Of a stretch of 57,550 nucleotides of DNA, positions 16,037-42,837 are shown piece after piece. The stretch comes from Vreelandella subglaciescola. Lineage in GTDB: Bacteria > Pseudomonadota > Gammaproteobacteria > Pseudomonadales > Halomonadaceae. The stretch covers positions 1 through 57,550 of the forward strand of contig JAKDRW010000009.1 in the NCBI GenBank assembly GCA_030454225.1, read 5' to 3'. Position numbers and translations under genes: made by a program. The notes under the pieces are model-generated. The model worked only from the letters and a program-made list of their open reading frames with translations. It searched no databases and was not told the DNA's origin. The first letter of the stretch is position 1, and each line of letters begins with the position of its first letter.

Positions 16037-16290
16037 GCTTCTCTCCCTTTGGCCGACAAACGACCGTATAAACGATGATAGGGCTTATCATAAAGCACCT
16101 GAGTGAATAGGAAAAATCGCGCTCCACGGCATGCCGCAGGCTAGGGCGACTCTGGTACACTTTCGCCTAATACCCTTAGCCGTGATCTACCCCCGAATAA
16201 TGATCCCAACCGGCGGCCGCAATGGGCGAGCCGCTGTGCCGTGGGCGCCTGATCTTTTGATTCTACCTTCATACGTAAAGGACTTCTGCC

Positions 16291-40104: not shown

Positions 40105-41019
40105 ATGACGAGTATCATTGACGCGCTGGGGCCGCTTTTTGCGCTGATTGCTCTGGGCACCGTGCTGGGCGTGGGGCGCTTCTTGCCGGCCAGCTTCTGG
40201 CCGCAGCTGGAGCGGCTGGTGTATTTCGTGCTGTTTCCCGCGATGTTGGTGGCCACGCTTGCCACGGCGGAAATCAGCCGGGTACCCGTGGGGCGCCTGG
40301 CCGTTGTGTTGCTGGGTGCCATGGCGGTATTTGCCCTGGCGCTGTGGCGCCTGCGCCACCGGCTGGGGCTTGAGGCGGCAGCGTTTACCTCGGTATTTCA
40401 GGGGGCGCTGCGCTTTAATACCTATGTTGGTGTGGCCGGCGCGGCGGCGCTGCACGCTGGCCCGGGCGCGACCGTGGCGGCGGTTGCGGTGGCGCTGATG
40501 GTGCCTACAGTCAACGTGATCTGCGTGGCGGGGTTTGTGGCGGCCGGCACCCTGGGACGCGGGGGGCTGGGTAAAAGCGCGCTGGCGCTGATGAAAAACC
40601 CGCTGATTCTTGCCTGCTTGCTGGGCGTGGGGCTTAACCTTTCCGGCGTGGGACTTCCCGGCTGGAGTGAGGATGCGGTGACGCTGGTGGGCCGCGCCGC
40701 GCTGCCCCTCGGGCTGCTGGCGGTGGGCGTGGCGTTGCGCTTGCCGGCGCTGCTGCGCCTGAACCGGGGCGTGTTTGCCGCAGCCGGTGTCAAACTGGTG
40801 CTGATGCCGGGACTGGCGCTCGCGCTTGCCTGGCTATTACGGCTCGACCCCATCAGCCGCGATGTGGCGCTGCTGTTTGCCGCGCTGCCCACGGCGACGT
40901 CAGCCTATATTCTGGCGCGCCAGCTAGGCGGCGATGCCGAGCTGATGGCTGCGATTATTACCGGGCAGACGCTGCTGGCGATGCTCACCCTGCCGCTATG
41001 GCTGCAGCTGGTCGCTTGA
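40105..41019 (+). CDS. AEC family transporter (auxin efflux carrier-like)
   Basis: This 304-residue membrane protein has about ten helices in two halves with an inverted-repeat fold, as in the AEC family (malate, malonate or other organic acid carriers). Landmarks include LVYFVLFPAMLVATLA in the first half and ALLFAALPTATSAYILARQLGGD near the end. AAGGAAGAG precedes the ATG. Substrate unknown; alone on its strand. No terminator was seen between it and the small RNA promoter. Confidence 0.85.
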   Translation: MTSIIDALGPLFALIALGTVLGVGRFLPASFWPQLERLVYFVLFPAMLVATLATAEISRVPVGRLAVVLLGAMAVFALALWRLRHRLGLEAAAFTSVFQGALRFNTYVGVAGAAALHAGPGATVAAVAVALMVPTVNVICVAGFVAAGTLGRGGLGKSALALMKNPLILACLLGVGLNLSGVGLPGWSEDAVTLVGRAALPLGLLAVGVALRLPALLRLNRGVFAAAGVKLVLMPGLALALAWLLRLDPISRDVALLFAALPTATSAYILARQLGGDAELMAAIITGQTLLAMLTLPLWLQLVA

Positions 41020-41051
41020 TAAAAGGTAAATAAAAAAGTGTCGCATTTGTG

Positions 41052-41080
41052 TTGACGGATCAAATGAGAATGATTATATT
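41052..41080 (+). promoter_or_regulatory. Sigma70-type promoter overlapping a Fur box
   Basis: TTGACG (41052-41057) and TATATT (41075-41080) are separated by exactly 17 bases. The spacer and -10 contain TGAGAATGATTATAT (41065-41079), which matches 11 of the 14 defined positions of the 7-1-7 Fur consensus TGATAATNATTATCA. A repressor bound here would block RNA polymerase. It faces a non-coding stretch that ends in a strong terminator. Confidence 0.75.
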
Positions 41081-41086
41081 GCAGTT

Positions 41087-41240
41087 GTGGCGTTTGATGA
41101 GACGCCGCAAACCAAGGCAGCAACCGCCAGTTTACTGCCATGGTTTCTCCCTCTCATTGAGTCGAGATGGCTATTTACGTAGCTTTTCATGCTAGCGAGT
41201 CACGGTCTTATTGCCGCTCTTTTCAGAGCGGCCTTTTTTT
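41087..41240 (+). ncRNA. Probable Fur-repressed small regulatory RNA, about 154 nt
   Basis: The transcript predicted from the promoter above would start near 41087. Its parts in order are a 5' hairpin (GTGGCGT with ACGCCGC), a longer hairpin pairing AAACCA-GGCAG (41109-41120) with CTGCC-TGGTTT (41135-41146) around one A/A mismatch, an open pyrimidine-rich stretch CTCCCTCTC (41147-41155), a U-rich part that could bind Hfq, and a terminator stem with T7. No frame with a ribosome-binding site lies inside. The arrangement is that of RyhB/PrrF-type iron-sparing RNAs, which are made when Fur is unloaded. No sequence relation to those families is claimed. Confidence 0.6.
41213..41240 (+). terminator. 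Rho-independent terminator of the small RNA
   Basis: An 8-bp stem GCCGCTCT/AGAGCGGC with a TTTC loop is followed by C and T7 on the plus strand. No T-run is present on the other side, so it serves only the plus strand and not trmB. Confidence 0.9.
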
Positions 41241-41269
41241 GCGTGCTTGTCGAGGGTGATGTCGGCGGG

Positions 41270-42046
41270 CTAGCTTTCGCCGTGCGGCGCGTCATGGCGA
41301 TAGATCAGGTCCCAGACGCCGTGGCCCAGCTTCTCGCCGCGCAGCTCAAACTTGGTCAGCGGGCGAAACGTGGGGCGCGGTACGTAGGGCGCCGTCGCGG
41401 CGTCGGCGGTGTTGGTAAAGCCGGGGGCTGCGTCCATCACCTCGGCCATCCATTCGGCGTAGGCCTCCCAGTCGGTGGCCAGGTGAAAGCGCCCGCCGGG
41501 CGCCAGGCGCGAGCGCACCAGCTCGACAAAGGCCGGCTGCACAATGCGCCGCTTGTGGTGCTTTTTCTTCGTCCAGGGGTCGGGAAAGAACAGCTGCAGG
41601 GTATCGATGCTGCCTTCGGGCAGGCATTCTTCCATCACCGCCAGCGCGTCTTCGCGATAGACCCGCAGATTGGTGAGGCCGCGTTTGTCGGCTTCGTCCA
41701 ACAGCTTGCCCACGCCGGGGGCGTGCACCTCGATGCCGATAAAGTCGTTCTCCGGATGGCTTTCGGCCTGCTCGATCAGCGAGGTGCCCATGCCAAAACC
41801 GATTTCGACCACGCGCGGTGCGCGGCGGCCAAACAGGGCGTCCAGATCCTGGCGGCCGTCGGCAACGTTGAGCCCCAGTCGCGGCCAGACATCCATGAGG
41901 CCGCGGGTTTGCGCCTGGGTCGTGCGCCCGGCGCGGATCACGTAGCTTTTGATACCGCGGCGGTGCAGCGGGGCATCGGCGCTTTCCGGGCCGGTAGTGG
42001 CGTCGTCTGTTGTCTGTGTGTCGGTCATGTTACTGCGAGCATCCAT
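41270..42046 (-). CDS. trmB: tRNA (guanine-N7-)-methyltransferase
   Basis: TrmB makes m7G46 in tRNA using S-adenosylmethionine. Landmarks are [16 protein letters not shown] for cofactor binding, [18 protein letters not shown] and [12 protein letters not shown]. At 258 residues it is slightly longer than E. coli TrmB at the N-terminus. The ATG at 42046 overlaps the thiG stop (ATGA); an internal ATG at 42028 is an alternative. Cotranscription after thiS-thiG is common in this group. Confidence 0.93.
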
Positions 42047-42837
42047 CAGCCGTTGATACGGCCGGCAAAGGGGGTGGAGGGGTCGGCGCTTTGCCGGCGC
42101 GGCATGCGTCCGGCGAGAAACGCATCGCGGCCGGCCTGAACGGCCTGCTGCATGGCACGCGCCATGCGTACCGGGTCGCGCGCGTGGGCAATGGCGGAAT
42201 TGAGCAGCACGCCGTCGCAGCCCAGCTCCATGGCCATGGCAGCGTCCGAGGCGGTGCCGATGCCCGCGTCGACCAGTACCGGGACACTGCTGCGTTCGAC
42301 AATCAGGCGCAGGTTGTGCGGATTTTGAATGCCGTGGCCGGAGCCGATCAGCGAGCCCAGCGGCATGATGGCCGCGCAGCCCATGGCTTCGAGCTCGTGG
42401 GCGACGATGGGGTCGTCGCTGGTGTAGACCATGACGTCAAAGCCGTCGTCGATCAGCGTTTGCGCCGCCTTGAGCGTTTCGATCACGTTGGGGTAGAGGG
42501 TGTCGTCGTCGCCCAGCACTTCAAGTTTGACCAGATTATGCCCATCCAGCAGCTCGCGCGCCAGCCGGCAGGTGCGCACGGCGTCCCGGGCGTTATAGCA
42601 GCCGGCGGTGTTGGGCAGCAGGGTGTAGCGGTCCGGCGAGACCACGTCGAGCAGGTTGGTGCCGGACTCTTGCCCCAGGTTAGTGCGGCGCACGGCAAAG
42701 GTGACGACGTCGGCGCCGCTTTCGCTGATGGCAGCGCCGGCCTCGTCAAAGTCCTTGTACTTACCCGTGCCGACCAGCAGGCGAGAACGAAATTCGCGGC
42801 CGGCAACGGTAAGCGGTGCGTCGTGGAGTGCGGTCAT
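42046..42837 (-). CDS. thiG: Thiazole synthase
   Basis: ThiG forms the thiazole ring of thiamine from deoxyxylulose phosphate, ThiS thiocarboxylate and an imine. A TIM barrel with the Schiff-base Lys in [15 protein letters not shown], the start [26 protein letters not shown] and the phosphate site [20 protein letters not shown] are visible. At 263 residues it is normal. It follows thiS by 23 bases and overlaps trmB. Confidence 0.95.

Follow-up and report, generated by a model that had tools for sequence, protein, structure and literature searches.

A probable PrrF-type small RNA with an expanded core in Vreelandella subglaciescola

Promoter, Fur box and predicted transcript

We analyzed a stretch of 57,550 nt from V. 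subglaciescola (the window). The region of interest lies between a gene for an AEC-type carrier (40105–41019, + strand, Pfam Mem_trans) and a convergent gene for a trmB-type tRNA methyltransferase (41270–42046, − strand, PF02390). An initial annotation of this DNA had placed a candidate Fur-controlled small RNA between these two genes, and the Pfam matches bear out this placement. The sole long open reading frame on the + strand of the region, 41189–42139, runs antisense to trmB and was taken as spurious.

A sigma-70-type promoter, TTGACG-17-TATATT, is present at 41052–41080 (+ strand), the position at which it had been annotated. It scores 10/12 and is conserved in the alignment of 45 copies described below. 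In 1.3 kb of the window around the locus, two promoter-like sites were observed compared to 0.2 in shuffled sequences. The spacer and the −10 element of the promoter overlap with a predicted Fur box, TGAGAATGATTATAT, at 41065–41079 (+ strand). It has three mismatches to TGATAATNATTATCA, which is the 11/14 agreement that had been claimed. Six sites of this quality occur in the whole window (0.24 expected), and many columns of the box are invariant or nearly invariant in the 45 copies. The Fur box scan of the window also revealed an operator-like near-palindrome, TGATAGGGCTTATCA, between two divergent open reading frames at 16076–16090.

The predicted small RNA of about 154 nt covers 41087–41240 (+ strand), counted from a putative start; it is supported by a match to the Rfam family RF00444, by its fold and by a match to our model R1 (see below). 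It folds at −56.2 kcal/mol (z = −4.3), a value that none of 200 shuffled sequences reached, in agreement with the two folded domains of the initial annotation. Stem-loop P1 (41087–41108) with the loop UUGAUGAG was predicted from the fold and includes a covarying pair; of the 45 copies, 24 have A-U and 21 have G-C there. Stem-loop P2 (41110–41145) was assigned by fold and alignment. The 5′ half of a PrrF core, GGUUUCUCCCUCUCAUU, was recognized at 41142–41158 by comparison of the copies, and the 3′ half, GCGAGUCACGGUC (ordinarily GCUAGUCACGGUC), follows at 41195–41207. The transcript would end at an intrinsic terminator (41213–41240) with an 8-bp stem at 41213–41232 followed by a T-run; all these elements are on the + strand. 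Such a terminator alone is weak evidence, since the 1.3 kb scanned contain four terminator-like sites versus 1.7 in shuffled sequences. The terminator is conserved among the copies and shows compensatory pairs, so that the one-directional terminator of the initial annotation stands. An open stretch CTCCCTCTC, also postulated, was not recovered: both the minimum-energy and the centroid fold pair most of it with letters inserted into the core of this copy.

Conservation in the genus and relationship to PrrF

Rfam at the gathering threshold gave no match in the whole window. In a sensitive Rfam scan of 251 bases, which returned eight matches in all, the full model of PrrF (RF00444) matched with an E-value of 8.5e-6 and 40.6 bits, and the next family with 0.49. 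The gathering score of RF00444 is 90 bits. None of 151 genomes of the family reached this cut-off (best score 75.1 bits). The covariance model of RyhB did not match up to an E-value of 10 in 41020–41270.

A DNA search located the region in 37 of 58 genomes, namely in its own genome and in each of the 36 others from the genus; 21 genomes of other families gave no match. RF00444 matched 19 of the 20 loci of relatives that were scanned; the sole miss was genome G009, which carries a core insert. Across the family, matches were found in 124 of 151 genomes and 23 of 24 genera at E ≤ 1, a lax threshold at which 3 of 14 control genomes also matched. Across the order, 21 of 115 genomes matched at E ≤ 0.01 (0 of 14 controls), and three were above the Rfam cut-off; we refer to loci above this cut-off as Pseudomonas-type. 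In both surveys stricter filters lose weak matches, and the copy of the window was not among the matches listed.

Since RF00444 covers promoter and Fur box as well, we needed a model restricted to the transcript. Our model R1 lacks both elements, comprises 129 positions with 24 pairs and was built from 34 of the 45 aligned copies. It matched the window at 41082–41240 with 106.7 bits and, at E ≤ 0.001, all 82 genomes of the genus, including all 73 of good quality. Conservation in relatives had been set as a test by the initial annotation. The transcript was found in all of these genomes, and promoter, Fur box, stems and terminator in the 45 aligned copies.

Identical copies were collapsed before counting, which left 47 distinct copies. 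The alignment contains 45 of them, from at most 36 of the 82 genomes, since one overlapping duplicate and one copy cut at a contig end were omitted. The proportion of paired cells was 98.2% versus 95.8% in shuffles (0/500 as high), and the covariation score was 0.165 versus 0.117 (0/500). Compensatory changes, which had also been named as support, were seen in eight pairs changed on both sides versus 3.5 in shuffles (2/500), with the reservation that kinship among the alignment rows inflates covariation counts. Further pair types did not exceed the shuffles (429/500). Sliding the partners by one to three columns reduced pairing to 33–55%. For the 45 copies RNAalifold paired the P1 loop GAUGAG with CUCAUU of the core in preference to forming P1 itself. 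This pairing is possible in all 45 rows, where it hardly varies and therefore lacks proof; other P1 loops are present in L107–L109 and L051. A competing fold or a contact between loop and core is possible.

PrrF1 and PrrF2 of Pseudomonas resemble the window RNA in the Fur box over the promoter, the 5′ stems, the intrinsic terminator and the core UCUCC(Y)UCAUY-GCUANUCACGG. They also occur as tandem copies, as do copies in relatives of the window. Unlike them, the window copy is single, has its core split by 36 nt and scores 40.6 bits against the 90-bit cut-off. Judged from these comparisons, the locus is a divergent PrrF homologue under the Rfam cut-off. The initial annotation, which had assigned a Fur-controlled RNA with the logic of RyhB and PrrF, appears to have named the correct class. 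The shared logic stood; the limitation to logic did not, since a homologue of PrrF with the same core is present and intermediates exist elsewhere.

The annotation knew of no described homologue in Halomonadaceae, and nothing in the literature that we found contradicts this. PrrF and its targets have been studied in Pseudomonas according to the accessible parts of PMC13104616 and PMC2851614. In the limited open-access literature no native PrrF of Halomonas or Chromohalobacter was found; the accessible parts of PMC12164125, PMC13101641 and PMC13414033 mention only PrrF1 of Pseudomonas aeruginosa, used in Halomonas as an engineered scaffold. Our results point to a native PrrF-type RNA throughout Halomonadaceae, a group of industrial chassis into which PrrF1 has been imported as a scaffold, and to a large branch of PrrF that is hidden by the cut-off of Rfam.

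The split core and its carriers

The core CTCCCTCTCATTGCTAGTCACGGTC is nearly invariant in the genus. In the window its halves are separated by 36 nt (41159–41194), and a contiguous PrrF core UCUCC..UCAU..GCUANUCACGG is absent. This expansion was beyond what the initial annotation could see. Long inserts in the core were found in 4 of the 82 genomes: 36 nt in the window, 13 nt in G009, 26 nt in G223 and 25 nt in G185. A pattern search of the 82 genomes identified G009 and G223, and also one copy of G007 with its spacing altered by 4 nt; the 40-nt gap of the window is beyond that pattern. G185 was missed by the exact pattern because its core ends with GGTT, and was found by reading the cores of the remaining genomes. 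Small spacing changes of 2 and 3 nt occur in G218 and in one copy of G228. No other genome of the genus that was read had a spacing change of more than 4 nt at the insert site.

In a tree of the AEC protein (33 rows, 31 from the genus and two from another genus) the four carriers make up one side of a branch with a support of 100/100. Identity of the AEC protein to that of the window is 96% in G223, 88% in G185 and 87% in G009. Within this clade G185 is the first to branch off, and support for the order of the other three is weak. The carriers are thus not ordered by the number of units. A series of one, two and three units in successive relatives was considered and found no support in this tree.

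The inserts can be divided into units that resemble the 13-mer GCUAGUCACGGUC of the core itself: one in G009, two in G223 and G185, and three in the window. By our reading of the borders, the units of the window are GAGUCGAGAUG (11 nt, 41159–41169), GCUAUUUACGUA (12 nt, 41170–41181) and GCUUUUCAUGCUA (13 nt, 41182–41194), all on the + strand. Identity at a lag of 13 was 18/26 in G223 (0/20,000 shuffles), 9/13 in G009 (5/20,000) and 15/36 in the window (335/20,000). The value for G185, 10/25, was not significant alone (1384/20,000). The first 13 letters of its insert share 10 with the first unit of G223, and the last 13 share 9 with the insert of G009. The inserts resemble a tandem repetition of the 13-mer GCTAGTCACGGTC of the core, and tandem duplication would explain their origin. 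A scan of the whole collection for the inserted copies, in which near records may be omitted, gave three matches in unrelated organisms that were taken as chance. We also considered the insert as a new hairpin domain and rejected this: it is foldable in G223 and G185, but not beyond shuffles (39/500 and 80/500), with 271/500 for the window and 409/500 for G009.

Each carrier has a single R1 match at E ≤ 0.001, with scores of 98 to 112 bits, lower than in most of the genus. All four have kept promoter, Fur box, P1, P2, terminator and the motif UCACGGU.

Predicted target, alternative readings and further variants

Apart from one mismatch, the core UUGCUAGUCACGG is the complement of the predicted start GUGAAUAGCAAACGACCCGUA of sdhC plus the preceding CC, the 3′ half pairing across the predicted GUG start codon. 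This start was identical in all 12 genomes of the genus that were tried. The 13-base sequence CCGTGANTAGCAA has 28 sites in these 12 genomes, of which, by our own sorting, 12 are at sdhC, 13 in the small RNA genes and three elsewhere in two genomes; the reversed control gave four sites. Codons 2–7 of sdhC are fixed in 12/12 genomes of the genus compared to 8 of 100 later codons. Of 25 genomes of the order (loci L065–L076, L147–L157, L160 and L161; 25 of 27 genomes, G135 and G149 being left out), 24 have retained codon 2 (AAT), 23 codon 3 (AGC) and 21 codon 4 (AAA), a constancy that the remainder of the gene does not show. Early codons can also become fixed for other reasons, and the conservation of codons 2–4 is possibly a record of PrrF pairing. 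Of 15 genomes outside the genus, 10 have the exact sequence CCGTGAATAGC at the start of sdhC and two, G252 and G037, differ by a wobble-compatible base; G056, G135 and G149 have the RNA and no such site at sdhC.

Candidate targets were ranked among 269 start regions, the background being 268 starts of mechanical open reading frames picked by rule from 400 kb of G223. With the 3′ half of the core sdhC was second. With whole cores it was 14th for G223, 25th for an ordinary core and 6th for the window. The classical target sodB was unconvincing: it ranked 161st, 93rd and 193rd with the whole cores, and 259th and 28th with the 3′ and the 5′ half, respectively. According to the accessible part of PMC2851614, sdhCDAB and the aconitases are PrrF-dependent in P. 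aeruginosa. Complementarity to the start of a PrrF-dependent mRNA is therefore present at the locus, as is the predicted Fur box overlapping the promoter, and sdhC is the best-supported predicted target.

Some inserted units match sdhC as well. Free of mismatches are GCUAUUCA in G009 and G223 and GCUAUUUACG in the window, where CGUGAAUAGC at the sdhC start is matched by the first 10 nt of unit 2, GCUAUUUACGUA, one of the pairs being G-U; G185 has no sdhC-matching unit. Net pairing energies with sdhC, calculated after the cost of opening the small RNA and leaving out that of the mRNA, were −12.6 (window), −14.5 (G223) and −13.2 kcal/mol (G009) versus −12.8 and −16.1 kcal/mol for two ordinary copies. 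After the opening cost the ordinary site was the best one in these three carriers, and an improvement of sdhC pairing by the inserted units is thus not supported.

The stretch very probably encodes a PrrF-related small RNA that is predicted to lower succinate dehydrogenase at low iron. We are fairly confident that it represents a PrrF-homologous, Fur-repressed, iron-sparing RNA that targets sdhC and has its core split by extra units. When iron is plentiful, Fur bound to the box over the −10 element would keep the RNA off; iron scarcity would allow it to be made, with a length of about 154 nt. Together with Hfq it would pair with the messages for iron proteins that the cell can spare and stop their translation or bring about their decay, the 3′ half of the core pairing over the GUG start of sdhC. 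In this lineage the diverged extra units may provide a second possible site for pairing with sdhC. Transcription, the action of Fur and Hfq and the repression of sdhC are what we infer from homology, complementarity and conservation. Genes for Fur and Hfq were not found in the window's own assembly, which is 72% complete; both are present in G223 and G009.

It is conceivable, and at present doubtful, that this clade has amplified its core as tandem units of about 13 nt that now start to act as pairing elements in their own right. We consider this less probable because G185 lacks a unit matching sdhC and the number of units does not follow the branching of the tree. If it is true, tandem duplication in a pairing region is a route to new target sites for RNA regulators.

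The opposite development, by which the insert splits the core, hides CUCCCUCUC and leaves the RNA largely inactivated in this lineage, is unlikely. The units are diverged and unequal in length, the spacing change and the low R1 scores set the carriers apart, and the 5′ half of the window core is predicted to be paired with inserted letters. The sdhC site of the window has partly lost its match (GCGAGUCACGG), and the GGTT end of the G185 core is a further change. However, the elements from promoter to terminator listed above are kept in all four carriers, and the net pairing energies of three carriers stand beside those of the ordinary copies. Since each carrier has a single match to the model, decay would also remove the regulator altogether.

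We regard it as very unlikely that the locus is an independent Fur-controlled RNA that resembles PrrF solely in promoter, Fur box and terminator. Promoter and Fur box do add to the RF00444 score, and analogues exist. RyhB of enterobacteria is a Fur-repressed, iron-sparing RNA and shares this logic, whereas its covariance model finds no match at the window locus. BrrF of Burkholderia (accessible part of PMC7377471) and, from the title of a reference, NrrF of Neisseria share the logic and have sdhC among their targets; neither was among the eight Rfam matches at the locus. BrrF is reported in that paper to be dissimilar in sequence to the known Fur-regulated small RNAs and to end without a stem-loop, unlike the window RNA with its intrinsic terminator. 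The promoter-less model R1, however, still found the Pseudomonas-type loci L107–L109, with best E-values of 4e-4, 2e-4 and 9e-4, and many intermediates with values between 1e-13 and 4e-6. The shared core is visible and changes in small steps from TCTCCTCATCAGGCTAATCACGG (L107) through TCTCCTCATCAAGCTAGTCACGG (L049) to TCTCCCTCTCATTGCTAGTCACGG in this genus, and intermediates sharing it occur in other genera and families. These R1 results largely refute an independent origin; a homologous transcript outside promoter and Fur box is common to the window RNA and PrrF.

It is even more improbable that the RNA is the 3′ untranslated region of the AEC gene. The locus lies just past the stop codon on the same strand, but it has its own conserved promoter and Fur box, and so has a second copy in G007 (L032, L059), the flanks of which, as far as available, have no match to AEC. 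An assembly artefact of an incomplete genome (85 contigs) is scarcely credible as the source of the insert, which is present at the same place in three other assemblies, those of G223 and G009 being single-contig; only the exact insert length in the window genome depends on a single assembly.

The locus is best described as a conserved, PrrF-homologous regulatory RNA with an unusual core expansion in one clade. This clade offers natural variants with no, one, two or three extra units for studying changes in a pairing region.

Copy number also varies in the genus. More than one R1 match was found in 28 of the 82 genomes, in G018 at contig ends, while the four insert carriers have one match each. 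Tandem arrays contain five (L207, G212), three (L208, G227), three (L209, G228) or two (L210, G194) PrrF-type bodies with terminators at a period of about 135 bp (97% match in L207) and a single Fur-box promoter in front. No TTGAC or TGAGAA is visible at the inner copies, which are therefore perhaps expressed by readthrough alone. This recalls PrrH, which P. aeruginosa forms from its prrF1-prrF2 pair by readthrough (accessible part of PMC2851614), a likeness that does not extend to the single copy of the window. Near position 550 of L036 (G018) and 472 of L039 (G016), both on the minus strand, a near-identical promoter and Fur box are present without a PrrF core. These second loci share another downstream block and may represent a further RNA under Fur control or a copy that has degenerated. 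A copy of 92 nt in L234 (G179) lacks stem P2 and has kept promoter, P1, core and terminator.
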